Positions 8,709 through 30,557 of a DNA stretch of 58,441 nt are shown here, in pieces. The notes below the pieces were generated by a model. It had not been told where the DNA came from. It did no database searches and saw only the letters and a list, made by a program, of their open reading frames with translations. The translations under genes and the position numbers were made by a program. How positions within the stretch are numbered: the first letter of the stretch is position 1; every line of letters begins with the position of its first letter. Source of the DNA: Bacteroidaceae bacterium (GTDB lineage: Bacteria > Bacteroidota > Bacteroidia > Bacteroidales > Bacteroidaceae); NCBI GenBank assembly GCA_017938245.1, contig JAGBBX010000006.1, positions 1 to 58,441 on the forward strand, written 5' to 3'.

Positions 8709-11663
8709 ATGGCAAAGTGTACTAAATGCGGTGGTGAACTTAATCCCGGTGATAAGTTCTGTATGAAGTGTGGAACTCCTGCTCCCGTACAAGTGAATCA
8801 GAAAGGTATGCAGTCTGATGTATGCCCCAAGTGTGGCAACAGATTTAATCCCGGTGATAAGTTCTGTATGAAGTGTGGAACTCCTGCTCCCGCGCAAGTA
8901 AACCAGAAGAGTGTGCAGGCTAATGTATGCCCCAAATGCGGTGGTGAATTAAAGCCCGGTGATAAATTCTGTATGAAATGTGGCACTCCCGTAGCACAAG
9001 CAGGTGCAGGTGAGAAAGGCTGGTTTACCGATGGTGTACGTGCCGTTGCGAATGCCATAACAGGCGGACAGATGAACCGCGACATACAGCGTGAGCAGCA
9101 GGCTGCTGTAAACCAACAGGCTCGTGCCGACCAGGGCGAGATACAAAATGCGCAGCAGGCACAGCAAAACGCCGAGCGTGCCCAGCAACGTGCCGAGCGT
9201 GAAGCCGAGCGTGCACGCGACCGTCGTGCTATGGAGGCTGTCGATGGCGTGGATGTAGTACGCGGACGTGTCATCTGGAATATACAGCCGGGTGAGATTG
9301 CACGCAAGATAAAGGAGACCGAACTCGAAGAGATTGAGAAACTGAAAGGTATCATTGTTCAGGAGGGTTGTACAGCCATTATCTTTGCCAATGGCGAGCT
9401 TGTGTCGACAATTTCGTCGGGTGCTTATCTGTTCTACAAGAGTGTCGAGGAGGAGCAGGCAGCTATTAAGGCGGCTGTGGAAAAAGCCGAGAAAGAGCTC
9501 GACGAGAAAGAGCGCAAAATAAAAGAAGAGAAACGCAAAGCCGAGCCTACCTTCAGTCAGTTGGGTATTGTGGGCGAAATTAAGCGTGGCTTCGGATGGG
9601 TGAACCGCCTTATCTTCGGTCAGAAGAAGGATGAGAAAAAAGATAAGGTCGAGAAACGTAAGATTGACTATGCACGTATCCTTGCACGCCTCACTCAGGC
9701 GCCTGTGATGTCGGTATATCTCGTTAGCGACCGTTTCATTCCAATGACATTCGGCGGACAGGTTGCCAACGATGGTGGTATCAGTTTTGTGCCCTATAGT
9801 ATTCCTACCCGTGTGTTTGACGTGCAGATGGGAGTATCGCTTCAGCTCAAGGTGAATAATATAGCAGCTGTTGCATCTAACTATTTGGCCGACAAGCGTT
9901 CGCTCACTACCAATATGTTGCATCAGATGCTCAATGGCAGCATCGAGAATATGCTCCGTCAGGCAATGCGTAATGTCGACTACCAGCAGACAGGTCTGCC
10001 AATGGATGTTATTGCAAGTCTGAAAGCACAGTTGCAGCAGTTTATCAATACTCAGCTTCACGGCATAGAGTGTGCGCAGGTACTACAGGTTACCGATAGC
10101 AATGCCGAATTCGACCGCTTTCGTGCTGTAGAGCGCGAACTCTATTGCACCGAGAAAGAACTCGACTATCTGCATCGTACCGGTGAGTTCCGCAACCGTT
10201 TGGCAATAGAGACCAACAAGCAGACCATCGACAAGGCTACCACCGACGAGGAACTGCGTTATGCTCTTATGCAGATAAACAAGGACGAACTTATCCACGA
10301 CGACGAGTTCGAGGCTTTTACACTTATGCTGAATGCTCAGAAGCGTTTGCGTGAGGCAAAGAGCAAAGAGGAAGAGTATGAGGCACTTATCGACCTTAAG
10401 AAGAGTCGCCTTGTAAAAGAGGAGGATATTGCTGTGCTCGAGGATGCTCTTGCACAGAATAAGATACAGCGTGAGAGCATCACCGAGATTATGCGCATAC
10501 AGCATCAGCAGAGTGTCGACGATGCTCGTCTTGAGGCCGAGTGGGCTATCGGTGACAAGAAACAAGACCACGATTGGGAGCGCGAGGATCTTCAGCGTCG
10601 TCGTAATTGGGGTATCGAGGATGAGCAGCGCGAGCGCGAGTGGATGCACGAGGAGCAGGAGTACAACCGCAAGTTTGGTCGTATTCAGCAAATCGAGGAG
10701 TATGAGTGGCAAAAGAAGATTCGTGACAACGACTTCGAGTGGCAGAACGAAGAGCGCCGCCGCGAGAGCGAGTGGCAGCAGCGTCTGCGCGAGGAGCAGT
10801 TGCGTCGCGAGAACGAACAGACTGCCTACGACCGCAGCCGTCAGGATAAGTTCGACGATGACAAGATGGACGAGAACCGTCATCAGCGTCAGATGGACAA
10901 ATTGCGCAATATGGCAAATATTCAGGCTCAGTTAGATGCTCAGAGGTATCAGAACGAGCAGAATATGGCACAGATAAATGCAAACGTTGCAATGAATCGC
11001 GACAACCAGTTTGCAAATATGAGTGCCGACCAGATTCGTGCAGCCCAGCTTTCACATCTTACCGGTGAGGCTCAGGTTGCTATGGCAAATTCATATAACA
11101 AGGATGGCGAGAATGAATTGTTGAAGAAACAGCAGGCCGAACAGGCTGCGCTTTACCAGCAGATGTTGCAGATGCAGCAGAATCAGGGAAATCAGAATCA
11201 GCAGATGATGATGCAGATGGCTCAGATGATGCAGCAGGGTATGATGGGAACGGCGCAAGCAAACCTTGCCAACCAACAGGCTATGTATCAGCAACAGCAA
11301 CAGTGGCAGCAGCAGCGCTACGAAGATCAACAGCAGCGTGCCGACGAGTATCGTCAGGATGCTTATCGTCAGCAAGACCGTATGGATGCTCAGAATCAGG
11401 TAGCTATGGGTAGTATGGCTCAGGTTAACACCGCCGCTGCAAGCAATATTTATACAAATAACAGCAATGTAAATATGCAGGGTTATCCTCAGCAGCCCCA
11501 GCAACAGTGGCAGCCTCAACAGCCTCAGCAGCAGCAACCCGAGGCACCTCAGCAGCAGCCCGAGGTACCCGAGCAGAAGGCTGCGGCCAATGTGTGTCCT
11601 CGATGTGGTGCTCCTCTTAATGAGGGCTCGGGATTCTGCGTAAATTGCGGTCTGAAACTGTAA
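8709..11663 (+). CDS. Zinc-ribbon, coiled-coil, SPFH-like protein
   Basis: 984 residues. Three tandem zinc ribbons lie at the N-terminus (Cys 4/7/18/21, 39/42/53/56, 74/77/88/91) and one at the C-terminus (Cys 963/966/977/980). After an Ala/Gln/Arg-rich coiled coil (about 115-180) comes a region of about 190-480 with VVRGRVIWNIQPGE, PTRVFDVQMGVSLQLKV and FINTQLHGIECAQVLQV, the layout of the SPFH (band 7/flotillin) or virion-core-like family. Residues of about 600-720 form a highly charged helix with regularly spaced Trp (DHDWERE, REWMHEE, FEWQNEE), then a Gln-rich low-complexity tail. SPFH proteins assemble into membrane-associated rings; the zinc ribbons may bind the similar heads of the downstream proteins. 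It starts the unusual locus and has its own probable promoter. No membrane helix is obvious. Confidence 0.72.
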   Translation: MAKCTKCGGELNPGDKFCMKCGTPAPVQVNQKGMQSDVCPKCGNRFNPGDKFCMKCGTPAPAQVNQKSVQANVCPKCGGELKPGDKFCMKCGTPVAQAGAGEKGWFTDGVRAVANAITGGQMNRDIQREQQAAVNQQARADQGEIQNAQQAQQNAERAQQRAEREAERARDRRAMEAVDGVDVVRGRVIWNIQPGEIARKIKETELEEIEKLKGIIVQEGCTAIIFANGELVSTISSGAYLFYKSVEEEQAAIKAAVEKAEKELDEKERKIKEEKRKAEPTFSQLGIVGEIKRGFGWVNRLIFGQKKDEKKDKVEKRKIDYARILARLTQAPVMSVYLVSDRFIPMTFGGQVANDGGISFVPYSIPTRVFDVQMGVSLQLKVNNIAAVASNYLADKRSLTTNMLHQMLNGSIENMLRQAMRNVDYQQTGLPMDVIASLKAQLQQFINTQLHGIECAQVLQVTDSNAEFDRFRAVERELYCTEKELDYLHRTGEFRNRLAIETNKQTIDKATTDEELRYALMQINKDELIHDDEFEAFTLMLNAQKRLREAKSKEEEYEALIDLKKSRLVKEEDIAVLEDALAQNKIQRESITEIMRIQHQQSVDDARLEAEWAIGDKKQDHDWEREDLQRRRNWGIEDEQREREWMHEEQEYNRKFGRIQQIEEYEWQKKIRDNDFEWQNEERRRESEWQQRLREEQLRRENEQTAYDRSRQDKFDDDKMDENRHQRQMDKLRNMANIQAQLDAQRYQNEQNMAQINANVAMNRDNQFANMSADQIRAAQLSHLTGEAQVAMANSYNKDGENELLKKQQAEQAALYQQMLQMQQNQGNQNQQMMMQMAQMMQQGMMGTAQANLANQQAMYQQQQQWQQQRYEDQQQRADEYRQDAYRQQDRMDAQNQVAMGSMAQVNTAAASNIYTNNSNVNMQGYPQQPQQQWQPQQPQQQQPEAPQQQPEVPEQKAAANVCPRCGAPLNEGSGFCVNCGLKL

Positions 11664-11712
11664 AAAAGTTTTTAAAGAAATGGTTTGGGTAAACTACTCA
11701 AACATACCCTAA

Positions 11713-11767
11713 GGCAGGTTCTATGAATTATAAAAGGCACTCCCTTTGGTAATTTATAGAGCTTGCC
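11713..11767 (+). ncRNA. Structured hairpin between the SPFH gene and the Sel1 cluster
   Basis: Arms 11713-11730 and 11750-11767 pair over 18 positions with three G-U wobbles and no mismatch; inside the loop AAAGG and CCTTT pair again. Wobbles without mismatches suggest selection on an RNA structure. No U-run follows directly, so it may be a processing or attenuation element instead of a simple terminator. Confidence 0.45.
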
Positions 11768-11833
11768 TGTAATAGCAAAAATGAGGTATTGAAAAACGGC
11801 GAAACAGCCGGCCTCTATATGAATATTTTTTAG

Positions 11834-11849
11834 AAATTTAAACAGCTTC
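11834..11849. repeat. Solo right end of the inverted-repeat element
   Basis: AAATTTAAACAGCTTC matches the right terminus at 175-190 with one change and is also preceded by a T-run. No matching left end is visible nearby, so it is a degraded or partial copy, 21 nt before the next ATG. Confidence 0.5.
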
Positions 11850-11870
11850 TAAATATAAGGATAATAAATT

Positions 11871-14303
11871 ATGTATTGCCCAAATTGTAAAAAAGTGTAT
11901 TCTTCCGAATATAAGGGAAATTTCTGTGGCGATTGTGGTACAAGATTGGTTGATTCGCCAAAGCAGAACGATTTTGGTGTAAACATCAGCGATGATGCCG
12001 CCATTATGGGTGGAGTGAATGTTGTGCGTAACGACACGCACAATACAACAAGTTTCGACCAGAGTGTTACATATAACAGTACTGTAACAAATAACATAAA
12101 CAAAAGTACTATAGAGTTGCAGCAAGAGCGCACTCAGTCGTTTATAGAGCAGTGCAAGCTGGCCTTCAGCGCCGGTAACGGATTAATCACCGAGGAGAGG
12201 AGAGTAAGCCTTGAGACACTTCGTTTGAGTCTGGGTATTGACGAAGCCGAGGCAGAACGTCTCATCGAGGTGGCACGTAAATCATCGGGGGCTCGTATGA
12301 CTACGCTCGGTGTGCGCGATGCAACGACAATGAAGAAAATTGACTCTTATATCGTTAATAACAATGCAACTATGCTCAAAGGGCAGATAGCCCGTCTTGC
12401 CGCCCTCGTAAACAACTATAATATCGAGGAAATTCACTATAAGAATTATATGTTGCAGGCTGCTCTCTCGCCTACTGAACTGATGCGCGGATACGAATCA
12501 AGTACCGCTGACGAATATTGGCAGACTTATTGGGCTTCTGTTGCTTATTTTAAATGTGGCGATAATGTAAAAGCCGAGAGGGCGATTGTGAAGTTAGACC
12601 GTTATGCCGAGTACCCCGAGGATAACACTCTGCTTCTCTCGGCCTTGAGTACTTATAAGGATTATGGAGTAGAGGAGGCTGCCGGCTACATAAACGCTGT
12701 TATTCCCGAGCAGTGCTCGCCACTGCTGCTGCCATTTGTGCAAGCTCTTTTCCTTGAGATTTATCCCGAGGGGGCAGCCGAGTTTGGTTTTGCTAAAGAG
12801 AATTGCCAGTTCTACATCGACAATTTTGTGGCAATGGAAAATTCGGCGCAGGGTGGTATGTTTGTTTCATCGGCTAATGCCGAGAATACTTTCAATACAG
12901 GATTGTCTCATTATAATGCCGAGAATTATAGCGAGGCTGTAAAATATTTCCGCGCGGCAGCCGAGCAGGGACACGCTGTGGCTCAGTGCTATTTGTCCGA
13001 CTGCTATTACGAAGGCAAAGGTGTAGAGGTCGATTATGAAGAGTCTGTAGCCTGGTGTCGTAAATCGGCCGAGCAGGGATATGCCGATGCGCAAAATAAA
13101 TTGGGATATGCGTACGAAGAAGGCGATGGCGTAGAACAGGATTTAAAAGAGGCTGTGAAATGCTATCGCAAGGCTGCTGAGCAGGGTTATGCCAAAGGTC
13201 AGAATAACTTAGCTTCTTGCTATGAAGAGGGTTTAGGAGTACCCGTAAATCTTGCTAAAGCAGTGGAATTATATACAAAGGCTGCCGAACAGGGATACGT
13301 CAAAGCGCAATGCAATCTGGGAAATTGCTACTACTATGGAACGGGTGTCGAGGAGAATCAGGAAGAGGCGGTGAAATGGTATCGAAAAGCAGCAGAGCAA
13401 GGTTATGATATTGCTGAATGTAGTTTGGGCGTTTGTTACGAGAATGGTTTTGGTGTTGAAGAGAATGCGAAAGTGGCTGTAAAATGGTATCGTAAAGCAG
13501 CCGAGCAGGGGAGTCCTATTGCTCAATGTTGTTTGGGCGTTTGTTACGAGAATGGTAATGGAGTAGAAGAGGATTGTGAAACTGCTGTAAAATGGTATCG
13601 TAAGTCGGCCGAGCAGGGATATGCCAATGCGCAAAACAATTTGGGACTCTGCTACGAAAATGGTGTAGGAGTGTCCGAGAATATTAAGGAGGCTGTAAAA
13701 TGGTATCGTAAGTCGGCCGAGCAGGGCGATGCCGATGGACAATGTTATTTGGGCGTTTGTTACGAGAATGGTAACGGGGTGCCTATGAATCAGAAAGAGG
13801 CTGTAAGATTGTATAAGTTGGCTGCCGAACAGGGGAATGCCGTTGCGCAGTGTAATTTGGGCGTTTGTTACGAAAATGGCGATGGAGTACCTGTAAACCT
13901 AAAAGAGGCTGTAAGATGGTATAAAGCAGCTGCCGAGCAGGAACACGACACAGCTCTATTCAATCTGGCTCTCTGTTACGATAATGGCGAGGGGGTACCT
14001 GTAGACAAAAAAGAGGCCGTAAGATTGTATCGCGCGGCTGCCGAGCAGGGACACGTCGGTGCACAGTTTAATCTGGCTATATGCTATGATAATGGCGAGG
14101 GGGTAGATGTAGACAAAAAAGAGGCCGTAAGATGGTATCGCGAGGCTGCCGAGCAGGGACACGCCAAAGCGCAGTATAATTTGGGATTCAGCTACGAGAA
14201 TGGCGAGGGTGTGCCGCAGAATCACGCGGCAGCTCTTAAATGGTGGCGTAAAGCAGCCGACCAGGGTGATGAGGATGCAATAGAATTATTAAATAACGAA
14301 TAG
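11871..14303 (+). CDS. Zinc-ribbon head protein with about 12 Sel1 repeats (paralogue 1)
   Basis: 810 residues. The head starts with a zinc ribbon (CPNC at 3-6, CGDC further on), then the motif [13 protein letters not shown], an Asn/Thr-rich stretch (HNTTSFDQSV) and a helical domain to about residue 325 that ends YIDNFVAMENS. The same head is found in the next four genes. From about residue 345 there are about 12 Sel1-like repeats of 36 residues (consensus [24 protein letters not shown]). Sel1 repeats form alpha-solenoids that bind partner proteins. No signal peptide is present, so it is probably cytoplasmic. The next paralogue starts 33 nt downstream. The role of the head is unknown to me. 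Confidence 0.72.
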   Translation: MYCPNCKKVYSSEYKGNFCGDCGTRLVDSPKQNDFGVNISDDAAIMGGVNVVRNDTHNTTSFDQSVTYNSTVTNNINKSTIELQQERTQSFIEQCKLAFSAGNGLITEERRVSLETLRLSLGIDEAEAERLIEVARKSSGARMTTLGVRDATTMKKIDSYIVNNNATMLKGQIARLAALVNNYNIEEIHYKNYMLQAALSPTELMRGYESSTADEYWQTYWASVAYFKCGDNVKAERAIVKLDRYAEYPEDNTLLLSALSTYKDYGVEEAAGYINAVIPEQCSPLLLPFVQALFLEIYPEGAAEFGFAKENCQFYIDNFVAMENSAQGGMFVSSANAENTFNTGLSHYNAENYSEAVKYFRAAAEQGHAVAQCYLSDCYYEGKGVEVDYEESVAWCRKSAEQGYADAQNKLGYAYEEGDGVEQDLKEAVKCYRKAAEQGYAKGQNNLASCYEEGLGVPVNLAKAVELYTKAAEQGYVKAQCNLGNCYYYGTGVEENQEEAVKWYRKAAEQGYDIAECSLGVCYENGFGVEENAKVAVKWYRKAAEQGSPIAQCCLGVCYENGNGVEEDCETAVKWYRKSAEQGYANAQNNLGLCYENGVGVSENIKEAVKWYRKSAEQGDADGQCYLGVCYENGNGVPMNQKEAVRLYKLAAEQGNAVAQCNLGVCYENGDGVPVNLKEAVRWYKAAAEQEHDTALFNLALCYDNGEGVPVDKKEAVRLYRAAAEQGHVGAQFNLAICYDNGEGVDVDKKEAVRWYREAAEQGHAKAQYNLGFSYENGEGVPQNHAAALKWWRKAADQGDEDAIELLNNE

Positions 14304-14336: not shown

Positions 14337-16226
14337 ATGTATTGTCCGAATTGTAAAAAGGAGTATCCCGTCGATTTCCAGGGAAAATACTGTATAGAGT
14401 GTGGTGCTAAATTGGTCGAATCGCCACAGAGTGAAAATACAGGTGTAAATATTGGTGGAGAGGCTGCCATTATGGGTGGCTTGAATGTTACGACAAATGA
14501 GTCGCACAACACTACTACATACGACCAACGTGTAATAAACACAAAAACAGTAACGAATAATATAGTAGAGCGCGAAAAAAGCGAATTTGAATTGCGTAAC
14601 GAGCGTAATGCGCAGTTTATGGAGCTTTGTAAACAGGTATTGAGTGATGGCCTAATGGCCGAGGAGGAGAAACAACGACTCACAGCCGAACGTGTGCGCT
14701 TGGGACTTGACGAGACCGAGGCTGCCCGACTCATCGAGATTGTGAGAAAAACCTCGGGTGTGCGTATGGCAACACTTGGAACGCGAGATACAATGACGCT
14801 TAAGAGCATCGACCGTTATCTCGAAAGTAATAATCGCATTGTGCTCGGTGGACAGATTCCTCGTCTTAAGGCCCTTGTGCAAAATTATAAGATAGAGGAG
14901 GTACTCTATAAGTATTATATGTTGCTTGCAGCGCTGCGCCCCGATGAACTTGTGAAAGAGTACGAAAGTAATGTTGCCGATGAGTATTGGCAAACCTATT
15001 GGGTGGCAATAGCTTATATGAAACTTAACAAGGTTGCCGAAGCCGAAGGTGCAATAGTGAAATTGGGACTTTATCCAAGTTATCCCGAGCATAACGCGTT
15101 GCTGCTGTCGGCGGTAGGCACGCTTGCCGAATTAGGCGTCGAGGATACATCGAGTTATGTGGCAGCTGTTAATCCCGAACAGTGCTCACATCTGCTTGCT
15201 CCATTTGTACACGCGCTTTACTTCGAGGTTGTACCCGAGCGAGCCAAAAGTGTAGGCGCAAGAAGAGAAAATTGTCTCTTTTATATCGAGAATATAGTCT
15301 CTTTGGAAAGCCCTGAGGAAAAGGAGGCAAAGCGTAAAGCCGAGGAAGAAGCAAAGCGCAAAGCAGCTGAAGAGGAAGCCCGTCGCAAGGCCGAGGAGGC
15401 TAAACGTAAAGCCGAGGAGGATGCCCGTCGCAAGGCTGCCGAAGAAGCCAAACGTAAAGTCGAGGAGGATGCCCGTCGCAAGGCTGCCGAAGATGCCAAA
15501 CGCAAGGCCGAGGAGGATGCTCGTCGCAAGGCTGCTGAAGATGCCAGACGCAAGGCCGAGGAGGATGCCCGTCGCAAGGCTGCCGAAGATGCCAAACGCA
15601 AGGCCGAGGAGGATGCTCGTTGCAAGGCTGCTGAAGATGCCAGACGCAAGGCCGAGGAGGCTGCCGAAGATGCCAGACGTAAAGCCGAGGAGGATGCCCG
15701 TCGCAAGGCTGCTGAAGATGCCAAACGCAAGGCCGAGGAGGATGCCCGTCGCAAGATTGCCGAAGATGCCAGACGTAAAGCCGAGGATGCCCGTCGCAAG
15801 GCTGCCGAAGATGCCAGACGCAAGGCCGAGGAAGATGCCCGTCGCAAGGCTGCCGAAGATGCCAAACGCAAGGCCGAGGAGGCTAAACGTAAAGCCGAGG
15901 AAGAGGCTGCTGCCAAACGCAAAAAAAGAAATATGTGGCTTGCAATTGCTGCTATATTTGTAGTTGCTCTTTTTGTTATTCCCGGTTTATTCGGTGATGA
16001 CAAAGATGCTGCAATCGAGGAAGGAAGCGCCACAATGATTCGTACTATTGAAGAAGAAAGTACCATCGAGGAGAAAAATGCCACAATGAAACGTGCCATC
16101 GAGGAGGAAAATGCCGCAATTAAACGTGCCATCGAGGAGGAAAATGCTGCAATGAAACGTGCCATCGAGGAAAAAAATGCTGCATTATCGGAGTGGGAGA
16201 AAATTGTCTCAGGGAGCGAGGACTGA
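14337..16226 (+). CDS. Zinc-ribbon head protein with long coiled coil and C-terminal membrane helix (paralogue 2)
   Basis: 629 residues. The shared head (zinc ribbon CPNC/CIEC, GGEAAIMGGLNV, helical domain ending YIENIVSLESPEE) covers about 1-328. About 200 residues of Lys/Arg/Glu/Ala repeats (EEDARRKAAEDAKRKA) follow, which should form one long coiled coil. A hydrophobic helix starts at Met533 (MWLAIAAIFVVALFVIPGLF), then a short tail with repeated IEEENAA units. With no signal peptide, the head and coiled coil should face the cytoplasm and the protein be held in the inner membrane. The coding DNA for the coil is a tandem repeat of about 48 bp and may vary in length. This is the only clear membrane protein of the five paralogues. 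Confidence 0.72.
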   Translation: MYCPNCKKEYPVDFQGKYCIECGAKLVESPQSENTGVNIGGEAAIMGGLNVTTNESHNTTTYDQRVINTKTVTNNIVEREKSEFELRNERNAQFMELCKQVLSDGLMAEEEKQRLTAERVRLGLDETEAARLIEIVRKTSGVRMATLGTRDTMTLKSIDRYLESNNRIVLGGQIPRLKALVQNYKIEEVLYKYYMLLAALRPDELVKEYESNVADEYWQTYWVAIAYMKLNKVAEAEGAIVKLGLYPSYPEHNALLLSAVGTLAELGVEDTSSYVAAVNPEQCSHLLAPFVHALYFEVVPERAKSVGARRENCLFYIENIVSLESPEEKEAKRKAEEEAKRKAAEEEARRKAEEAKRKAEEDARRKAAEEAKRKVEEDARRKAAEDAKRKAEEDARRKAAEDARRKAEEDARRKAAEDAKRKAEEDARCKAAEDARRKAEEAAEDARRKAEEDARRKAAEDAKRKAEEDARRKIAEDARRKAEDARRKAAEDARRKAEEDARRKAAEDAKRKAEEAKRKAEEEAAAKRKKRNMWLAIAAIFVVALFVIPGLFGDDKDAAIEEGSATMIRTIEEESTIEEKNATMKRAIEEENAAIKRAIEEENAAMKRAIEEKNAALSEWEKIVSGSED

Positions 16227-21100: not shown

Positions 21101-21167
21101 GTTTCGCAAGGCGGCCGAGAAAGGACACGAAGGTGCTAAAAAGAAGTTAATAGAGCTTGGATATTAA
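18156..21167 (+). CDS. Zinc-ribbon head protein with L7/L12-like domain and about 15 Sel1 repeats (paralogue 4)
   Basis: 1003 residues. The shared head has a shorter zinc ribbon (CPNC, CPEC) and [13 protein letters not shown]. An Ala-rich coil of AARKAAEE units (about 308-368) leads to an L7/L12-type domain at about 371-437 ([47 protein letters not shown]). From about residue 450 there are about 15 Sel1-like repeats with GYGVNKD loops. Several repeats are nearly identical at DNA level (for example around 20202-20330 and 20734-20860), a sign of recent duplication. The DNA around the L7/L12-to-Sel1 junction is almost the same as in paralogue 5. It is probably a cytoplasmic scaffold. Confidence 0.73.
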
Positions 21168-21237: not shown

Positions 21238-23151
21238 ATGTATTGCCCAAATTGTAAAGAGGAATTTCCCGGTAAATTTTGTCCCGAGTGTGGTACAAAA
21301 TTGGTAGAGGTACCTAAGCAAAATGATTATGGAGTAAGCATCAGTGACGATGCTGCTATTATGGGTAGTGTAAATGTCACACGTAACGAGTCGCATAACT
21401 CAACAAGTTACGACCAGCGTGTGATACATAACAGTAGCGTAACCAATAATATTGTTGAGCGTGCAAAGAGCGATGCCGAGTTGCGTAACGAACGTAACAT
21501 AAAGTTTCTGGAACTCTGTAAACAGGCATTCAGTGATGGATTGCTCGACGAAGAGGAGATGATAATGCTTGCCACCGAGCGTCTGCGTCTGGGAATTAGC
21601 GAGGAAGAGGCTAATCGACTTATAGAGACGGCACGACGCGCATCTATGAGCCGAATGAATACCCTTAGTATGCGCGACTCGATGACGCTGAAAACTATTG
21701 ACCGCTATATCGATGGTAATAATGCTGCTATACTTAAAGGGCAGGTATCGCGCCTTGCTGCTCTTGCGCGTAACTACAAAATAGATGAGGTGCAGTACCG
21801 ATATTATATGCTTATGGCTGCCTTGTGTCCCGATGAGCTTATTCGCGAATATGAGGGGAATATTGCCGATGATTATTGGCAAACCTATTGGGTGGCAATA
21901 GCTTATATGAAGAAGGGCGATACGCTGAATGCCGAAGATGCCATAGTGAAACTCGATGTCTACACCGAGTACCCCGAGGATAACTCGTTGCTGCTCTCGG
22001 CTTTGAGTACCTATTGTGTGTTTGGTGCTGCCGATGCTGCGGAATTTATCGGCGCAATATTGCCCGACCAGTGCTATCCGCTGTTGATGCCATTTATTCA
22101 CGCTCTGTTTCTTGAGATTGCTCCCGAACGTGCAGCCGAGGTTGGCGCGCAAAAAGAGACGTGTCAATTTTATCTCGATAATATTGTTAATTTAGAGAGT
22201 CCCGAGAAGAAGGCAGCTGCCCGCAAAGCAGCCGAGGAAGAGGCTGCGCGTAAGGCAGCCGAAGAACTCGCCCGAAAGACTGCCGAGGCTGAAGCTGCGC
22301 GTAAGGCTGCCGAAGAACTTGCTCGAAAGGCAAACGAAGAACTTGCCCGCAAGACTGCCGAGATTGAAACCGCCCGCAAAGCTGCCGAAGAGGCTGCTGC
22401 TCGCAAGGCTGCTGAGGAAGCCGCTGCTGCCAACAGATTATATGACGTAGTAATGACTTCGGCAGGAAGTGCTAAACTTAGTGTAGTTAAGGCTGTTAAA
22501 GAGGGGGCTGATCTCTCTTTGTTAGAGGCTAAGAATCTTGTCGATAATGTTCCTTCTACTATTGGAGAGGGACTTTCTAAAGCCGATGCCGAGTTATTGA
22601 AGAGTTCCCTCGAAGATTGCGGTGCCAGGGTTGAACTGAGAGTCTCTTCGGAAGATGCCGAGTCGAGAAAAAAGAGAGCAGTAGATCTTTACAACACAGG
22701 CGACGATTATTATTACGGTAGAAGCGGCAGGGAAAAAAACCTTGTAGAAGCTGCAAAGTATTATCGTAAGTCTGCCGAATTGGGCTATTCGAAAGCGCAA
22801 AACGATTATGGATATTGCTGTAAGAACGGTTATGGTGTAGATAAAAATTATGCCGAGGCTGTAAAATGGTATCGTAAGGCTGCTGAACAGGGTAACATTT
22901 TTGCACAAAATAATATGGGAATTTGTTATGAGCTTGGTCAAGGCATCGATAAAGACTATACCGAGGCTGTTAAATGGTATCTTAAGTCGGCCGAACAGGG
23001 GAACTCTTCTGCTCAAAGTAATTTGGCTGATTGCTATAAGAATGGCTATGGTGTAAGTAAAGATATATCCGAGGCTGTAAAATGGTATCGTAAAGCTGCT
23101 GAACAAGGAAACGAAAGTGCTAAAAAGAAACTAAAAGAGTTGGGATACTAA
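21238..23151 (+). CDS. Zinc-ribbon head protein with L7/L12-like domain and four Sel1 repeats (paralogue 5)
   Basis: 637 residues with the same order as paralogue 4: zinc ribbon (CPNC, CPEC), [13 protein letters not shown], helical head, an Ala/Glu/Lys coil (about 320-398), an L7/L12-type domain at about 401-467 ([50 protein letters not shown]) and then only about four Sel1 repeats. The head DNA is also close to paralogue 4, so the pair arose by a recent duplication followed by repeat gain or loss. The stop is followed by sequence similar to the 3' end of paralogue 4 (TAATAAGC..TTTTCGAGA). The peptidase gene begins 131 nt later. Confidence 0.73.
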
Positions 23152-23282: not shown

Positions 23283-25109
23283 ATGAATATCGATGATTAT
23301 CTTAACAGCTTGAGAAACGAACTCGATAATACACTTGGCGAGTTCTCTCTTGGTGAACCACAGAATAACACAGGAAACGCTGTTTTCTGTCCCGAGTGTG
23401 GTACAAGAAACCCCTCGGGTGCCCGATTCTGCTGCAACTGCGGAACCTCGCTTGTCAATAATAGTGATACGGTATGTACTCAGGATGAGGACGATAACGA
23501 TTATACTCTGTTGTCCGATAATGAGGCTCAGTATGGCATACTGTATACCAATACCGTGCGACTTGCCAAGAAGTATGGTTGTTCTACCGATGATGTATGC
23601 GCAGTTCTTGATAATTTCTGCGATAAGGCTGCAAAATACAATATGCATTGGGATATACTCGATGCATCGGATAATCCCGACTATTTCGGTTCGGACGATT
23701 TCTGGCTCGAACACAACGAGCTTATCTCCGACTATTTCGAGCAGTCGTCGATTGAGTATGGTATGAAAACTCCTCTCTTTATAATTGGTGGAAACGATGT
23801 TATACCAATCCCTATGGTCGAGGATATCTTTGGTACAAGCCGAACCGGTAGGATTCCTTGTGATATGGCCTACTGCTTCCCCGGTAATTTCTTTAGCGAT
23901 ATATGGGAGTATGGCGACCATAGCATAACAGAGACCTCGGTGCGTAACACCGTGTCCCGTTTGCCTTTGGAGGATGGAGAGATGTTTTCCTCACTCGATG
24001 ACGACCTCGGAGCCTATTTCGACCTGTGTGCCGAATATTACAAAGAGGGCATTCCTGTAGAGAGGGTTATGATGACTGCCAATGCTTCGTGGCTGCCTGC
24101 AAGCAAGACTATGTCGGAGCATCTGCCGCTACTGCATAGTACCAATGACCCTAAATTGGTAAAGCACGGTATGTATGTCAGTCCTCCTGTTATGGCCGAC
24201 AATGAAGAGACGGCCGAACCGCTGAAAGAGACACTCGAAGATGAAGATACAGGAATGTTGCTCTTTAATCTTCACGGTGCCAGTGCCCCCGAGATGTCGG
24301 GATTCTATAGCGACTATGGCAAGACTTTCGATATCGGTATGCTTGGCGAGACAAATGCACGTGTGTTTAACACGGTCGCTTGTTTTGGAGCTCGTTATTA
24401 CGGCTATAGCCGCGAGGAGTCGATGCTGCTCTCTGCTTTCTTCGACGAGCGATTCTTGTTGTATGCAGGTTCGCTGATACCTGTGCCTATGATGGAACTT
24501 AATGTTCCCGAGGGTGTAGTGGTACACGAGGGTTCGGGTTCGGAGCATCTTATGCCCATCTACTGTATGGAGCAGTTCAGCGGTGCTCCTATGGGCGAGG
24601 CTATGATGCGTGCCAAGCTGAACTATTTTAATGTGTTCCGCCATTTTGAGCGCGACGACTTCTCTATGGCAACGATGATGATGTTCTCGCTCTACGGTAA
24701 CCCTATGTTGCGTATGGTGCGTAACGAGGATGTATTGCAGCGTGCAAGAGAAGAACACGTTCTGCCTACACTGCCACAGAAGGGTGCTGCTCCTTTGCGC
24801 AGGAAAGAGACACAGCGCATTATGGTTAAGGACGATAGCTCGATGTCGCTTCTCGACCAGGTACGTGGATTGGTCGATGATAATATCTCGGCAATACATA
24901 AGGAGATGCAGAAACATCTGTACGATGAGTTAGGTCTTGAACCTCGTTGGCTTAGTCGTATCGACCGCTTCTCAATTCCTAATGGCGACGGAACATACGA
25001 AGAGGGATACAGTTATGCCTACGAAGATAAGAGTAAGGCGTTTAATAATATGTCGTGGGTCGAGGTTGACTATGACGGTAATATCAAGCGCGTGTTTAAG
25101 TCGAAATAA
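23283..25109 (+). CDS. Zinc-ribbon caspase/gingipain-fold cysteine peptidase (clan CD-like)
   Basis: 608 residues, no signal peptide. A zinc ribbon is at Cys36/39/50/53. The core of about 150-470 has the order expected for a clan CD peptidase (caspase, C25 gingipain, CHAT): TPLFIIGGNDVIPI, then LLFNLHGAS with His331, then VFNTVACFGARYYG with Cys367, then LLYAGSLIPVPM and LYGNPMLRM. His-Gly and Ala-Cys pairs 36 residues apart match the catalytic dyad of this fold. The C-terminal 120 residues are a helical extension ending WVEVDYDGNIKRVFKSK. It probably acts in the cytoplasm, with the ribbon docking onto the zinc-ribbon partners. The substrate is unknown. The fold call is by eye. Confidence 0.65.
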   Translation: MNIDDYLNSLRNELDNTLGEFSLGEPQNNTGNAVFCPECGTRNPSGARFCCNCGTSLVNNSDTVCTQDEDDNDYTLLSDNEAQYGILYTNTVRLAKKYGCSTDDVCAVLDNFCDKAAKYNMHWDILDASDNPDYFGSDDFWLEHNELISDYFEQSSIEYGMKTPLFIIGGNDVIPIPMVEDIFGTSRTGRIPCDMAYCFPGNFFSDIWEYGDHSITETSVRNTVSRLPLEDGEMFSSLDDDLGAYFDLCAEYYKEGIPVERVMMTANASWLPASKTMSEHLPLLHSTNDPKLVKHGMYVSPPVMADNEETAEPLKETLEDEDTGMLLFNLHGASAPEMSGFYSDYGKTFDIGMLGETNARVFNTVACFGARYYGYSREESMLLSAFFDERFLLYAGSLIPVPMMELNVPEGVVVHEGSGSEHLMPIYCMEQFSGAPMGEAMMRAKLNYFNVFRHFERDDFSMATMMMFSLYGNPMLRMVRNEDVLQRAREEHVLPTLPQKGAAPLRRKETQRIMVKDDSSMSLLDQVRGLVDDNISAIHKEMQKHLYDELGLEPRWLSRIDRFSIPNGDGTYEEGYSYAYEDKSKAFNNMSWVEVDYDGNIKRVFKSK

Positions 25110-25137: not shown

Positions 25138-25248
25138 ATGGTTGAGATTAACGACCAGAAGAACTTGCTTAACCGCGTTCCCGTTGAGGCTGAGATTCAG
25201 AAGATGATTGATATTGCTAAGGAGCTTCCCGTAGTAATGACATACTAA
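25138..25248 (+). CDS. Small ORF of 36 residues after the peptidase gene
   Basis: ATG at 25138, 28 nt after the peptidase stop, encoding a soluble peptide beginning MVEINDQKNLLNR and ending VVMTY. The codon use resembles its neighbours (AAG, GTT, GAG). A terminator follows within 40 nt, so it would be the last cistron of the operon. It is either a genuine small protein or the left-over start of a larger gene. I do not recognise it. Confidence 0.4.
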   Translation: MVEINDQKNLLNRVPVEAEIQKMIDIAKELPVVMTY

Positions 25249-25255: not shown

Positions 25256-25325
25256 ATTAACGATACGTATCGTTAATGCAAACACAACAACAGTGGCACC
25301 TCTTTTGTGGTGTCACTGTTGTTGT
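25256..25325 (+). terminator. Palindrome plus terminator hairpin
   Basis: First a 22-nt perfect palindrome at 25256-25277 (core AACGATACGTATCGTT). Then a hairpin at 25284-25325 with 17-bp arms (ACAACAGTGGCACC and its partner, one G-U pair) around TCTTTTGT. Together they close the peptidase transcript before the repeat array. Confidence 0.7.
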
Positions 25326-25355
25326 ATGTAATTGTCGTGTAGTTTGGATATATTG

Positions 25356-25624
25356 GCTCGTTTGTGTATATTTGAGGTAAACCTCGAATATATCCTGCAT
25401 TCGCTGCAAAATATCCAAGCAGGCTTGGCTTTATTTCGCTCGTTTGTGTATATTTGAAGTAAACTTCGAATATATCCTGCACTCGCTGCAAAATATCCAA
25501 GCGAGCTTGGCTTTATTTCGCTCGTTTGTAACTATATTTGAAGTAAACTTCGAATATATCCTGCACTCGCTGCAAAATACCCAAGCAAGCTTGGCTTTAT
25601 TTCGCTCGTTTGTGACTATATTTG
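25356..25624 (+). repeat. Three and a quarter tandem copies of an 82-bp promoter-like repeat
   Basis: Units start with GCTCGTTTGT at 25356, 25438 and 25520, with a partial unit at 25604-25624. Unit lengths are 82, 82 and 84. Each carries TATATTTG (a TAnnTTTG box), then a short hairpin (GAGGT/ACCTC in unit 1, GAAGT/ACTTC in units 2-3), then CTGCACTCGCTGCAAAATA and a CCAAGC/GCTTGG inverted repeat. The last box lies 48 nt before the helicase ATG. There are no unique spacers, so it is not a CRISPR. A related copy in reverse orientation is at 48771-48868. Confidence 0.8.
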
Positions 25625-25671
25625 CTTTCTGATACGAGTGTTTATTGCTTTATGCAAAACATATTACTAAA

Positions 25672-28600
25672 ATGAAAGACCTGAATAAAACCCTCATACG
25701 CAGTGTGGAACTTGCAAAGGTTCTGAATCACGCTCTCGAAGTGAAAAAGAGTGATAGCGCAAAAGTGTGCCGAAGCATCAATGAACTGCAAACACATGCT
25801 ACACTTGTCGAAGAGGGGTTGCAACGTCTGTGTAGCGAGTATGCCGTTGAGGTGAATAGTGCGAAACTTGCCCTGTGGGAACGTAAATTGCTCGACCTTA
25901 GTCTGCGTAATAATATGCTGAATATGCGTATGGGAAGAAATACAATCTCATACGAGCACCCCGATATTGCCGCGCTCGAGGATGAACTTGCCGATGGCAA
26001 GGAGATTATTCTTGAGCAAAAAGAACTGAAAGGTCTGTACAGAGCAATGCGCACCAATATGGAAGAGACGGGCGCAAATACTCTCTTCCTTACTCTTGGA
26101 ACATTGCGATGGCAAGAGAAACCGGGTGCCAAGCAGTATGCAGCGCCTATCCTTCTTGTGCCAATTGAGATGGTGCCAATGAAAAAAGAGCGCTATGCAA
26201 TACGTCGACGCGACGAGGAGACGATGCTGAACTTTACTCTGCTCGAATTTCTGCAACAACAGTTCGATATAACCATAGAAGGATTGCAGCCACTGCCACA
26301 GGATGCCTATGGTATAGATGTGAGCCTTGTAATGCACACTGTGCGCGAGGCTATTAAAGAGCTTCCCGATTGGGAGGTTGTCGAGGAGTCGCTAATTGGT
26401 ATCTTCTCGTTTACAAAATTTGTGATGTGGAACGATATTCACAGCCACAGCAGAGCTATAATGGGTAGCAATATTGTGCGCAGTCTCATCGAGGGACGTT
26501 TGTTGGTCGAGGATGATGTGCAACAGGCGGATGCCCGACAGTTGGATGTCAGTGAGCGTCCCGATGCCTATGCGCTGCCGGTGGATGCCGACTCGTCGCA
26601 GCTCGAAGCGGTGGTAGAGTCGGGGAAAGGACGCTCGTTCATTCTCTACGGCCCTCCGGGAACGGGAAAATCGCAGACTATCACAAATCTCATTGCCAAT
26701 GCTGTGTATCAAGGAAAGAGGGTGCTTTTTGTGGCGCAGAAGAGGGCTGCCTTGGAAGTGGTGCAATCGAGACTCGAAAAGATTGGTATGGGGCCTTTCT
26801 GCTTGGAATTGCACTCCAATAAAATGGATAAGAGACACTTTTTGGAGCAGATGCAAAAGGGACTCAGTGTAACTGCTGCATCGGATAGTGAGGAGTATCG
26901 TCGCAAGTCCGGCGAACTGTATGTGCAGCGTATGCAACTAATCGGGTATGTCGAGGCGTTGCATCGCAAGCAGGAGAAATCCTCGCTATCGCTAAGCGAT
27001 TGCATCGAGCGTTATTTGGCGGCAAATGCAGTACCTATGGAGGTTACAAAAGGGGTGATAGAGAAGATTGATGAGAAGGGTGCAGGTGAGTTACGAGACA
27101 AGATAATGATGCTCGGCTCCATTGAAATGATATTGGGAACATCTGCCTCGGAGCATCCTCTCTGTGGAATGTTACCCAAAAAAGCTCCCGAAGCAAAGAA
27201 AGGTGCCTACCTCTCGTCGTATATGCTCAGTAATACGGTCGAGAGTATGCTGCCCACTCTGCCGCAGGTGGTAGCGGCTCTGAAACAGCAGATAGAGCGT
27301 AACAAGAATGTTACATACGTATCGCGTACAACACGTCAATATATCGAGGGTGACTATAAATTCAGTAAATTCCTTGCTATTGCCGAGGTCGACAGCGCAC
27401 TGCTCGACGATGTGGATGCACTCGCTTCGGCTGTTGAACGTTGGAATGCTAATATAGCTCTGTTGCCGCAATGGCAAAAATATGCCGATATTATTAACGA
27501 CCTTAACGAGTGCGGACTCTCGGATGCGGTGAAACAGTACGCTGCCGGAGTGTCTGTGCCTGCGATTTGTGATGCTTTTATGGCGGCATTCTATCGCGAA
27601 AAAGCACAAGAGATAATCATTGCCGACCCAACGCTGAAAGAGTTCAACGGACTGATGTTCGAAGAACTCATTGGACGATATACAGCACTTACACGCGAGT
27701 TTCAACAACTTACGCGCAAAGAACTTGTGGCAAGGGTAGCGGCAGGAATACCGCTCGATGCCCGCAACCCCGAGATTGGCGCCGAGCTTACGCTCCTGCG
27801 CAAGAGGATAGCGAACAAGGGACGCGGAGCAACAATACGCAATATAATAGACCAGATGCCACAGCTGTTGCCTTGTCTCTGTCCTGTGATGCTTATGAGT
27901 CCGCTGAGCGTGGCACAGTACCTCGATGTAAATGCTCCTAAATTCGACCTTGTGGTATTTGACGAGGCAAGCCAGATGCCGACGAGTGAGGCCATCGGAG
28001 CACTTTCTCGTGCACGTGCCGCTGTAATTGTGGGCGACCCGAAACAGATGCCCCCTACAAGTTTCTTCACTGTGAACACAACTGATGATGAGAGTGCCGA
28101 TGCTGATGACCTTGAGAGCATACTCGATGACTGTATCTCGTTGTCGATGCCCACGCACTATTTGGGATGGCACTATCGCTCGAAACACGAGAGTCTCATC
28201 ACATTCAGCAATATAAACTACTACGATAGTCGTCTGGTTACCTTCCCGTCAGCCGATGACAGGGTGTCGCACGTCACGTGGCAGTATGTCGAGGGATTCT
28301 ACGACTATGGCAAGACACGTACCAACCGCGCCGAGGCCGAGGCTATAGCTGACGAGGTGATGCGTCGCCTTGAACAGCAACCCGAGAGGAGCATTGGTGT
28401 GGTGGCATTCTCGAAACAGCAGAGTGACCTTATAGAGGATGTACTCACCGAGAGGATGGCGCAGCAACCACAGATAGAGAAAGTGAATCGCGAGAGCCAC
28501 GAGCCGCTCTTTGTAAAGAACTTAGAGAATGTGCAGGGCGACGAACGCGATGTGATACTGTTCTCGGTGGGATACGGTCCCGATAGCGAGGGACACGTCT

Positions 28601-29130
28601 CGATGAACTTCGGCCCGTTGAATAAGGCGGGTGGCGAGCGACGACTGAATGTGGCAGTGTCGAGGGCGCGTTACGAGATGAAGGTCTTCTCGACTTTGCG
28701 TCCCGAACAGATTGACGAGCGTCGCACACAGGCCGAGGGCGTATTGGGATTGAAACGTTTCTTGCTGTTTGCGCAGCGTGGAACAGATGCTCTTGGCGCA
28801 ACGGAAGAATCTTCGAACAGTCTTATGGTGCAACAGATTGCGTCGCGATTAGAGAAGGAGGGGTACGAGGTAAAAACCGCTGTGGGAGCTTCGGCTTTCA
28901 AGGTGGATATAGCTGTGGTCGACCCGCTTAACCGCGATAGGTATCTGTTGGGTATCATCTGCGACAGCGATGGTTACTATAGACTAAAGACGGTGCGCGA
29001 CCGCGAAGTGGTGCAACCGACAGTACTGCGTATGCTGGGGTGGAATCTTATGCATATATGGAGTATCGACTGGCTGATGCATAGCGATATGATAATAAAA
29101 AGGGTGAACGATACAATAAAGAGATTGTAA
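25672..29130 (+). CDS. DUF4011-type SF1 helicase with C-terminal restriction-nuclease-like domain
   Basis: 1152 residues from the ATG at 25672; an in-frame TTG 27 nt upstream is less likely. Residues of about 60-200 have the DUF4011 start (LALWERKLLDLSLRNNMLN, LFLTLGTLRW, APILLVPIEM). Helicase motifs are Walker A GPPGTGKS (327-334), FDLVVFDEASQMP with DEAS at 764-767, VGDPKQMPP, ENVQGDERDVILFS and LNVAVSRAR, as in the UPF1-like SF1 group. The end (LEKEGYEVKTAVG, KVDIAVVDP, LLGIICDSDGYY, LGWNLMHIWSIDWL) matches the MTES_1575/Vsr-like PD-(D/E)xK nuclease tail, but the usual Glu of the GIECDG motif is Ile1096 here, so nuclease activity may be lost. Related proteins occur in anti-phage defence islands. 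The tandem repeat upstream probably supplies its promoters. Confidence 0.8.
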   Translation: MKDLNKTLIRSVELAKVLNHALEVKKSDSAKVCRSINELQTHATLVEEGLQRLCSEYAVEVNSAKLALWERKLLDLSLRNNMLNMRMGRNTISYEHPDIAALEDELADGKEIILEQKELKGLYRAMRTNMEETGANTLFLTLGTLRWQEKPGAKQYAAPILLVPIEMVPMKKERYAIRRRDEETMLNFTLLEFLQQQFDITIEGLQPLPQDAYGIDVSLVMHTVREAIKELPDWEVVEESLIGIFSFTKFVMWNDIHSHSRAIMGSNIVRSLIEGRLLVEDDVQQADARQLDVSERPDAYALPVDADSSQLEAVVESGKGRSFILYGPPGTGKSQTITNLIANAVYQGKRVLFVAQKRAALEVVQSRLEKIGMGPFCLELHSNKMDKRHFLEQMQKGLSVTAASDSEEYRRKSGELYVQRMQLIGYVEALHRKQEKSSLSLSDCIERYLAANAVPMEVTKGVIEKIDEKGAGELRDKIMMLGSIEMILGTSASEHPLCGMLPKKAPEAKKGAYLSSYMLSNTVESMLPTLPQVVAALKQQIERNKNVTYVSRTTRQYIEGDYKFSKFLAIAEVDSALLDDVDALASAVERWNANIALLPQWQKYADIINDLNECGLSDAVKQYAAGVSVPAICDAFMAAFYREKAQEIIIADPTLKEFNGLMFEELIGRYTALTREFQQLTRKELVARVAAGIPLDARNPEIGAELTLLRKRIANKGRGATIRNIIDQMPQLLPCLCPVMLMSPLSVAQYLDVNAPKFDLVVFDEASQMPTSEAIGALSRARAAVIVGDPKQMPPTSFFTVNTTDDESADADDLESILDDCISLSMPTHYLGWHYRSKHESLITFSNINYYDSRLVTFPSADDRVSHVTWQYVEGFYDYGKTRTNRAEAEAIADEVMRRLEQQPERSIGVVAFSKQQSDLIEDVLTERMAQQPQIEKVNRESHEPLFVKNLENVQGDERDVILFSVGYGPDSEGHVSMNFGPLNKAGGERRLNVAVSRARYEMKVFSTLRPEQIDERRTQAEGVLGLKRFLLFAQRGTDALGATEESSNSLMVQQIASRLEKEGYEVKTAVGASAFKVDIAVVDPLNRDRYLLGIICDSDGYYRLKTVRDREVVQPTVLRMLGWNLMHIWSIDWLMHSDMIIKRVNDTIKRL

Positions 29131-29133
29131 AAT

Positions 29134-29184
29134 ATGAAATGTAAACTTTTTTCGGGATTCCATCTTTTTGGGAAGGCCTACTAA
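29134..29184 (+). other. Short leader ORF, possible frameshifted start of the channel-like gene
   Basis: An ATG three nt after the helicase stop encodes MKCKLFSGFHLFGKAY and then stops. The other frame of the same bases reads FWEGLLSAVVLYVAE, which runs straight into the channel-like protein. A one-base shift around 29170-29182 would join the two, so this may be the real N-terminus broken by a frameshift, or a leader peptide coupled to the GTG at 29193. Confidence 0.45.
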
Positions 29185-29192
29185 GTGCAGTA

Positions 29193-30470
29193 GTGCTGTA
29201 TGTTGCCGAGAGTTCGGTAAATGGTGATTACTCTTTCTGGGATGCCCTTGTGTGGACATTCGTGAAATATGTCGACGACCCTGCCGATATTGCAGCCGGT
29301 CCCGAGACTCCTGTGGGTAAGGTGGTTGGAACATTGGTTGGTGTGTTGGCTATTGCCATCTTTGCAGTGCCTGCCGGTCTTATCGGTTCGGGATTGATGG
29401 ATGCAATGAACGACGAGAAACACGAGAAGGAGATTGAGGAGTACAAAGGACGTATGAAAAAAACGTTCCGACGCGCAGGTAACAAGTCGCTGCGCAGCTA
29501 CCTGAATACATTGCCCGAGAAGGGTGGGGCGGCATTCTCGAAACTAAACTTCGTTCCGCAGTTCGTACCGCTGTCGCGCCTGCAGATAAGACTTGGTATA
29601 GGTATGAAAGAGGTGTGTGAGATTTGTGCGCGTTACCCCGAATTTTCACTAAAGAATATGGCCGATGCTTGTAGCGACGAGGAGAATGTCGACGACCGTT
29701 ATGTGTTGGGGTTGTCGCCCATAAACACATCTTACGGCTGCTGTGTCGGCAGAGGTCCTAATGTGACAATAGTATCGCCCTGTGGGTTCTCTGAGGTCTC
29801 TACCGATTGGTTTGCCTACTACCTTGCAAAGATGGGCGGATTTAATTTCATAGGTAAAAGTATCGAGGTCGACCCCGACGAGGTTGATTCGTTCTATAAT
29901 ATGTCGGCCGAGCCGCTCTACGATAAAAAGAAGAAATCGGAGTTTAGCGCAAAGGAGAAAGATATATTAGAAATTCTCGACCGTAAAACCCTGTTGCGCG
30001 ATGACTTCTTGAATGATATTAAGAAAATAGCTGCTAAGGGTTCTTGGGTAATCGTTGTTGCCGAGCACGTGATGAACTCGGATAACAAAACAGATTTTCA
30101 TTTCGCCGACAATATAAAGGATGGCTCGCAGCCAGCTGTTGTCGATACCGAGCGCTACGAGGCGTTATATAAGGCGTTTGACGATGCGATGCAGGGCGAG
30201 TTTGCTCTCTCTTCGACCGAACAATCAGCGCGCTATCCGCTGTTGAAGAGTAATATCGTTTATCGCCTGCGTAAAGAGGGTGTAGATACGAACGCCTTTG
30301 TGCTTCGTCCATCGTCTCATCTGATTAATTTCGATACTAAGAAATTGACTGTGGCATTCCGTATGGCACAGGTCATCAGTGAGTCGCTCGACGCTGGCAA
30401 GGGAATGAGTGAGAATGATATAAAGGATTTCTCTACAACAGGATTCGGTTTTTCCGAGAGTGTTATTTAA
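29193..30470 (+). CDS. Truncated ion-channel-like pore with large unknown C-terminal domain
   Basis: 425 residues from GTG 29193; no in-frame ATG lies near the start. Residues 1-72 look like the end of S5, a pore helix and S6 of a voltage-gated K+ channel family member (YSFWDALVWTF, VGKVVGTLVGVLAIAIFAVPAGLIGSGL). The position of the K+ selectivity filter (TVGYGD) reads VKYVDDPADI, so K+ selectivity is doubtful. S1-S4 and most of S5 are missing. A basic linker leads to about 330 residues I cannot assign (PINTSYGCCVGRGPNVTIVS, VIVVAEHVMNSDN, FVLRPSSHLINFD). It follows the helicase by 62 nt and is probably co-transcribed. It may be a degraded or frameshifted gene. Confidence 0.5.
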   Translation: MLYVAESSVNGDYSFWDALVWTFVKYVDDPADIAAGPETPVGKVVGTLVGVLAIAIFAVPAGLIGSGLMDAMNDEKHEKEIEEYKGRMKKTFRRAGNKSLRSYLNTLPEKGGAAFSKLNFVPQFVPLSRLQIRLGIGMKEVCEICARYPEFSLKNMADACSDEENVDDRYVLGLSPINTSYGCCVGRGPNVTIVSPCGFSEVSTDWFAYYLAKMGGFNFIGKSIEVDPDEVDSFYNMSAEPLYDKKKKSEFSAKEKDILEILDRKTLLRDDFLNDIKKIAAKGSWVIVVAEHVMNSDNKTDFHFADNIKDGSQPAVVDTERYEALYKAFDDAMQGEFALSSTEQSARYPLLKSNIVYRLRKEGVDTNAFVLRPSSHLINFDTKKLTVAFRMAQVISESLDAGKGMSENDIKDFSTTGFGFSESVI

Positions 30471-30482
30471 ATTCCATTGCTT

Positions 30483-30557
30483 ATGAGTGAAATAGAACAA
30501 TTTGCAAAAGATTATCTCGATGAGATACTTGCAAATTATGTGTATGCTTTTTGTTGA
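30483..30557 (+). CDS. Very small ORF of 24 residues after the channel-like gene
   Basis: ATG 12 nt after the preceding stop; begins MSEIEQFAKDYLDEI and ends in YAFC. A hairpin follows 7 nt later. It may be a truncated gene start or a small protein; nothing is recognised. Confidence 0.3.
   Translation: MSEIEQFAKDYLDEILANYVYAFC

Follow-up and report, generated by a model that had tools for sequence, protein, structure and literature searches.

The Locus and Its Closest Described Relatives

Rings of SPFH proteins are coupled to a protease or to an NfeD partner in the HflKC-FtsH, stomatin-NfeD/STOPP and QmcA-YbbJ assemblies, and AAA+ or serine proteases are caged by such proteins. A further SPFH protein, YdjI, is presumably of the COG4260 type. 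YdjI of Bacillus subtilis is soluble, carries a C-terminal zinc finger and needs membrane partners (PMC8581546); YdjG and YdjH recruit it, and PspA depends on it (PMC8581546, PMC9239133). Here we describe a gene cluster of a Bacteroidaceae bacterium in which an SPFH-fold protein is found together with zinc-ribbon adaptors sharing a common head and with a clan CD cysteine peptidase. The window, that is, the whole stretch of DNA that was analyzed, is the entire contig C33 (58,441 bases), part of a 2.7-Mb Bacteroidota bin with a completeness of 86% and a contamination of 6.9%. Nine open reading frames (ORFs) span positions 8709-30470 in one direction (the + strand, on which every cluster feature given below lies). 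This set had been delimited, with the same coordinates, in an earlier interpretation made from the letters alone (the sequence-only reading).

The cluster resembles the YdjI/PspA-YdjGH system of B. subtilis in having a soluble SPFH protein, a C-terminal zinc finger and partners that bear transmembrane (TM) segments, one of them with a zinc ribbon (PMC8581546, PMC9239133). The trait of the YdjI/COG4260 type, a soluble SPFH protein ending in a zinc ribbon, is present in the window protein. The YdjI system differs in that the partner there is PspA, and the available excerpts of those reports describe no peptidase, shared-head adaptors, helicase or reverse transcriptase (RT). PspA is not among the Pfam-named families of the nine window proteins, to which this comparison was confined. 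The difference from HflKC-FtsH, stomatin-NfeD/STOPP and QmcA-YbbJ lies in the protease: in place of an AAA+ or serine protease, the cluster has a zinc-ribbon cysteine peptidase of the C25-like, clan CD kind. No description of a combination of SPFH protein, C25-like peptidase and shared head was found in an open full-text library, a coverage outside which the neighborhood tables of UG/Abi RTs lie. The cluster may be an unrecognized bacterial stress or immune device.

Conserved Linkage of the SPFH-fold Protein and the Peptidase

The SPFH-fold protein, the shared-head adaptors and the clan CD peptidase constitute a genuine module that is conserved. Twenty-three peptidase loci were read, the window included, all from Bacteroidaceae/Prevotella-type genomes, and at 19 of them the SPFH gene stood in the same-direction gene run (in L018 only as a C-terminal piece at the contig start). 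At three of the remaining loci (L062, L063 and L071) the contig stops on the SPFH side, and L060, the second peptidase locus of the window's own genome, lacks the gene. The SPFH gene is followed by the peptidase gene after a gap of exactly 12 bases in L019, L020, L021 and L022. Conversely, eight of 201 family genomes have a true SPFH match, and all eight also carry the peptidase; eight further genomes, with matches of zinc-ribbon size below 50 bits, were dropped as SPFH carriers. Regular separation of the homologues was the outcome that the sequence-only reading had named as fatal to its proposal, and the linkage withstood this neighborhood check in both directions.

The first gene of the cluster (8709..11663) encodes a protein with four zinc ribbons, three N-terminal and one C-terminal, and a Q-rich coiled tail; a hydropathy scan revealed no TM segment. 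Judged from its predicted structure, this is an SPFH protein by fold that has no curated Pfam SPFH match. When an AlphaFold2 model of residues 165-640 (pLDDT 72.9, pTM 0.49) was compared with the PDB by Foldseek, the first 27 rows were all SPFH proteins (stomatin, prohibitin, HflKC, flotillin and QmcA) with a best value of 1.6e-5 and 12 rows at E ≤ 1e-3, and it is these rows that decide for SPFH. The domain, which has a helical insertion, covers residues 207-465 of the protein (model residues 43-301) and positions 9327..10103. Pfam Band_7 did not match at E ≤ 0.01 with the whole protein or at E ≤ 1 with residues 165-640, nor did it appear among the best 25 of 40 Pfam families for 18 relatives, and PF13421 had no match in the window's genome. 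L022 carries a second SPFH-type gene, which is Pfam-positive (Band_7_1), and a profile comparison with the second SPFH-type gene of L022 and L064 was weak (E 0.0018, probability 15%). Where the sequence-only reading had spoken of an SPFH-like ring former, the Foldseek result sustains the fold, whereas a Pfam SPFH label does not hold and an oligomeric ring at the membrane is a structure that the protein may form.

The peptidase gene (23283..25109) encodes a protein with an N-terminal zinc ribbon and similarity to family C25, which belongs to clan CD and is of the caspase-fold type. Against Peptidase_C25 (PF01364, cut-off 23 bits), the window protein scored 19.3 bits and its relative in L022 28.5 bits. 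His331, in a His-Gly pair (codon 24273..24275), and Cys367 (codon 24381..24383) are invariant in 23 of 23 peptidases and are the predicted catalytic dyad, and ribbon cysteines 36, 39, 50 and 53 are kept in at least 22 of 23. The C25 similarity and the two invariant residues bear out the clan CD peptidase of the sequence-only reading. No signal-like hydrophobic segment was found in a 19-residue hydropathy scan, the N terminus running into the zinc ribbon, and the peptidase is therefore probably cytosolic. It is like the gingipains (C25) in its weak Pfam match and its His/Cys dyad but differs from them in having a zinc-ribbon N terminus and no secretion signal.

Peptidase profiles identified the domain in 16 of 399 family genomes, after three of 19 family matches at 1e-8 (G529, G756 and G759) had been dropped as stretches of ribbon size only. 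Across 395 phylum-wide genomes, the peptidase profile returned the window's genome and eight others below 26 bits, all short matches and none convincing, and the head profile returned the window's genome and two others below 22 bits. Neither the peptidase nor the head matched IMG/VR viral contigs, PLSDB plasmids or phage records, and these collections yielded no carrier virus or plasmid for either.

Shared-head Adaptors

Five window proteins between the SPFH gene and the peptidase gene share a head of ∼320 residues, made up of a zinc ribbon, a disordered linker and a TPR-like solenoid. Chance does not account for this likeness: sequence identity to the third head is 58-63% for the other four and 57% for a further copy, the sixth, on contig C46. 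Pfam detects the head ribbon only weakly (of seven heads, the best gave E 0.0012), and the solenoid body belongs to no confident Pfam family; all 20 aligned heads keep cysteines C3, C6 and C15 of the ribbon, and at least 90% keep C18.

The tails differ. By Pfam and alignment, head protein 1 (11871..14303) continues into 12 stretches of Sel1 repeats, and head protein 2 (14337..16226) has an alanine/glutamate-rich charged coiled coil with one TM segment (residues 535-553, 15939..15995, hydropathy 2.67). Head protein 3 (16474..18114) has an acidic linker, an L7/L12 C-terminal domain and a C-terminal hydrophobic helix. The L7/L12 C-terminal domain is combined with Sel1 repeats in head protein 4 (18156..21167, 15 stretches) and in head protein 5 (21238..23151, four stretches), the latter assigned by Pfam, alignment, model and fold, with its L7/L12 domain at 22441..22638. 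Unlike tails thus sit on a common head within one genome, as the sequence-only reading had noticed; its observation of a recurring zinc ribbon was also correct: the SPFH protein has four such ribbons, the peptidase has one, and the heads carry others.

A pattern scan for heads in one genome from each of 84,980 species yielded seven further true-head loci (L016-L022). Two of them come from Prevotella isolates and five from bins, one assigned to Bacteroidales and four, from the gut of yak, buffalo and horse, to Bacteroidaceae. Two other candidates, L023 (cut by a contig end) and L024, were not counted, their matches spanning only 45 and 39 residues, respectively. The head is rare in the family as well, a single-sequence query having found it in two of 121 genomes. 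In PADLOC 2.0.0, the SPFH, head and peptidase proteins gave no match at E ≤ 0.01 except for the Sel1 repeats of heads 1 and 4, which matched PtuA and ATPase_I-A. The sixth shared-head protein stands alone at a contig end (L006, positions 376-2559, on C46) and carries repeats read as WG-type; the WG-type repeats of L018 match Pfam WG_beta_rep. Just upstream of this sixth gene (C46:105-156) lies a match to an ∼84-base dispersed repeat that also occurs in the window.

Two Lineages in Different Gene Company

Trees of the peptidase (23 rows) and of the SPFH protein (19 rows), both rooted at midpoint and with some long branches flagged, show the same split into types A and B with support values of 100/100 and 100/99, respectively. 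Type A comprises 11 loci (the window, L017-L022 and L062-L065), among which L017 was placed by its SPFH gene, the peptidase lying outside its stretch; the count excludes L016, a locus of heads alone, and the single head on C46. Type B comprises 13 loci (L060 and L066-L077), to which L114, without a peptidase, is added. Both types are present in G083 and in the window's genome.

Of the 11 type A loci, nine contain heads; the two without, L062 and L063, are each truncated on the upstream side of the peptidase. Six loci (the window, L017, L018, L022, L064 and L065) encode a partner that has a TM segment together with a zinc ribbon, a head or a coiled coil, and a partner of this kind also occurs in type B L075. 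Defense-type enzymes accompany six type A loci (the window, L018, L020, L022, L063 and L064). Inside or directly behind the type A cluster are a UG27 RT in L018 (4798-6510) and a UG26 RT in L020 (14562-15806), which match the PADLOC models at 423 and 553 bits, respectively. These strong matches to the UG26/UG27 families of defense-associated RTs (DRT) are confined to relatives of the window cluster, and none of the nine window proteins is identified as an RT by Pfam. L022 and L064 carry a PDC-S26-like nuclease, and in L018, L022 and L064 the RT or nuclease genes lie within the type A gene run.

The type B operon consists of genes for an SLT transglycosylase, the peptidase, the SPFH protein, a zinc-ribbon/TM/Sel1 protein, a FlgT_C-like protein, a DUF6175 protein and two LPP20-like proteins. 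The full set, with a single gene order, occurs in L067, L068, L069, L074 and L075, and one gene is missing in L060 and L114; the set is cut or partial in L066, L070, L071 and L076 and differently ordered in L072 and L077, and in L073 no envelope genes were recognized beyond the SPFH-peptidase pair. The two incomplete operons lie at 5745-7469 and neighboring genes of L060 and at 7721-17042 of L114, and both of their genomes also hold a type A locus. Relatives of the transglycosylase, FlgT_C, DUF6175 and LPP20 genes were found in none of the 11 type A loci. The defense role suggested by the sequence-only reading is therefore supported for type A only, through the enzymes in six of its 11 loci, and not for type B, which sits in an envelope operon.

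A Proposed Membrane-docked Platform and Its Alternatives

We propose, at about an even chance, that the cluster encodes an SPFH platform docked at the membrane, on which adaptors with zinc ribbons and a clan CD protease come together and which in type A probably serves anti-phage or abortive responses. The core consists of two genes, those for the soluble zinc-ribbon SPFH-fold protein and the probably cytosolic zinc-ribbon C25-like peptidase, extended in the window's lineage by adaptors that combine the common zinc-ribbon and TPR-like solenoid head with differing tails. By analogy with YdjI, which is held by YdjG/YdjH, the SPFH protein may assemble at the inner membrane into a ring or cage that is anchored by a TM-bearing partner, here head protein 2. 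The zinc ribbons and the common head would act as a docking code that brings adaptors and peptidase to the platform, and the tails (Sel1, WG, LRR, GYF_2 and the L7/L12 C-terminal domain) would be exchangeable receptors that recognize translation factors, phage proteins or damaged components of the envelope. A signal from such a receptor might then switch on or direct the caspase-type peptidase, host or phage proteins would be cut, and the cell would be stopped. The type A platform appears to be coupled to varying nucleic-acid enzymes, namely the DUF4011 helicase, the UG26/UG27 RT and the PDC-S26 nuclease, and it is because of this changing company that type A is read as an anti-phage device; it would descend from an envelope module whose other surviving form may be type B.

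Several observations weigh against this proposal. The SPFH model is of modest quality. The type B operons show complementary losses, that of the window's genome (L060) lacking the SPFH gene and that of G524 (L114) lacking the peptidase, so that the pair can part; the peptidase of G524 is the type A copy of L062. Of the ORFs scanned in L019 and L020, which had room for one, none encodes a zinc-ribbon partner with a TM segment. Five type A loci have no recognized defense enzyme, L019 and L065 with ample flanks and L017, L021 and L062 cut by contig ends, and one of 10 type B neighborhood proteins taken as a control also matches PADLOC candidate models; its gene lies ∼1.3 kb ahead of the L072 operon and on the same strand. 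The type B context is an envelope operon, and the ancestral role may therefore be envelope upkeep. In the window, the peptidase and helicase genes are separated by a terminator-like hairpin (noted by eye) and by a dispersed repeat, so the two genes may belong to separate transcription units.

The envelope context is also the basis of an alternative in which the cluster serves envelope or protein quality control, an SPFH-protease assembly watching the membrane in the manner of HflKC-FtsH, stomatin-NfeD or YdjI-PspA, with the defense enzymes as mere neighbors. The recurrence of the type B operon, complete in five loci and one gene short in two, speaks for it, and protease partners are an established SPFH theme, HflK/C-FtsH and QmcA-YbbJ being among the Foldseek matches. 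Set against it are the absence of the four type B envelope families from all 11 type A loci, the RT or nuclease genes inside the type A gene run of L018, L022 and L064, the other gene order of L072 and L077 and the lack of envelope genes in L073. The defense reading rests on the gene company of type A and the envelope reading on that of type B, and we regard quality control as a credible account of the cluster, with a probability short of even.

The helicase gene (25672..29130; the ORF is open from 25645, with an in-frame ATG at 25672) bears on a second alternative. It encodes an SF1 helicase in which DUF4011, AAA_11/AAA_12 and a C-terminal MTES_1575 endonuclease-like domain all score above their Pfam cut-offs, an architecture shared with the anti-phage helicases ProA (NF058533) and Hhe (NF042953). 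The window protein differs from these in scoring below the curated cut-offs (1339 bits against 1500 for ProA and 711.8 bits against 2000 for Hhe), in being shorter than most relatives and in its tie to the SPFH-peptidase cluster at four loci. It is an optional module, present in four of the 11 type A loci (the window, L018, L063 and L064). The family occurs in 29 of 201 genomes including the window's own, mostly as longer proteins.

In the second alternative, the cluster would comprise two adjacent units, the SPFH protein, heads and peptidase forming one system and the helicase, with the channel-like gene, being an independent defense gene of the ProA/Hhe kind. This is favored by the distribution of helicase relatives, 26 of the 28 other genomes not being listed with the peptidase, by the repeat and hairpin that separate the two genes, and by the G110 copy, which sits among genes read by eye as sulfate assimilation; PADLOC PDC-S37 is a single-gene candidate class. 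Against it, the helicases of the four clusters share 65-74% identity (66-74% with the window copy for those of L018, L063 and L064), and each is encoded downstream of the peptidase gene in the same orientation, whereas elsewhere in the 201 genomes the best copies are those of G110, with 52% identity across most of the protein, and of G084, with 58% identity in the C-terminal half. Two adjacent units are a plausible arrangement, to which we give somewhat less than an even chance. Loss of the nuclease Glu was considered as a cluster trait and rejected: at the position occupied by Glu in the distant L103, Ile or Val is found in the cluster copies, yet the standalone L101 and L102 are also without the Glu, and the loss therefore looks like a subfamily trait.

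Within the platform proposal, a stronger version, to which we give somewhat less than an even chance, would make type A an undescribed modular immune system. The SPFH ring would be an inflammasome-like platform, the caspase-type peptidase its executioner and the zinc-ribbon/TPR-headed adaptors its plug-in receptors; some L7/L12 C-terminal domains would monitor or bait translation GTPases or present substrates through a ClpS-like fold, and the nucleic-acid arm would be exchanged between lineages. A self-acting regulated protease with a gingipain-like surface or competition role and exported adaptors, to which the C25 similarity and the fimbrillin-type genes upstream (read by eye) might point, is very improbable in view of the peptidase's zinc-ribbon N terminus and its lack of a signal-like hydrophobic segment.

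If the platform proposal is correct, membrane microdomains would be linked to caspase-like proteolysis in bacteria through an SPFH protein, a caspase-type peptidase and exchangeable adaptors, and the platform might be a partner for UG26/UG27 RTs and DUF4011 helicases. The cluster is a concrete gene set for testing in gut Bacteroidota.

The Channel-like ORF and the Surroundings of the Cluster

The last ORF of the cluster (29193..30470) is channel-like, with a second TM segment and a long C-terminal domain but without the first TM segment. Hydropathy analysis gave a single TM segment, and the succession of TM1, pore loop and TM2 expected of a two-TM pore was not found. The relative in L064 has both TM segments and a short C terminus, and compared with it the 5′ end of the window gene is interrupted and shifted (29130-29230), which may reflect real damage or an assembly error. 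Relatives occur in eight of 201 genomes including the window's own and, among the loci read, only in L064. The gene is peripheral and probably damaged in the window. Membership of the channel-like pore in the system, as counted by the sequence-only reading, is thus not supported, nor is a fixed set of nine genes, the helicase being optional (four of 11 type A loci, and 28 other genomes).

Positions 25330-25624, in the gap between the peptidase and helicase genes, hold approximately three copies of the ∼84-base unit, which belong to a dispersed repeat for which the window's genome gives 46 matches. Ahead of them, a 36-codon ORF (25138-25248), which has no relative among the loci examined, is followed by the terminator-like hairpin. 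Directly upstream of the cluster (514-8486) are outer-membrane and fimbrillin-like lipoprotein genes (read by eye), and downstream (30645-32631) are a split HipA pair and a tRNA-Pro gene adjoining a glucosaminidase gene. An attachment-site repeat of the 3′ end of the tRNA-Pro gene was looked for in the window and not found. Five flank stretches were compared, and an empty site was not established from them: the glucosaminidase end is kept in L094, L095 and L097, only the neighboring OmpA gene is kept in L098, and L093 has nothing of it. The synteny of the tRNA-glucosaminidase pair is kept in G666. Contamination was considered because of the value of 6.9% for the bin; the right-flank stretch of the window matches 39 of 40 other genomes of the same genus, at no more than 88% DNA identity, and the flank therefore fits the genus.

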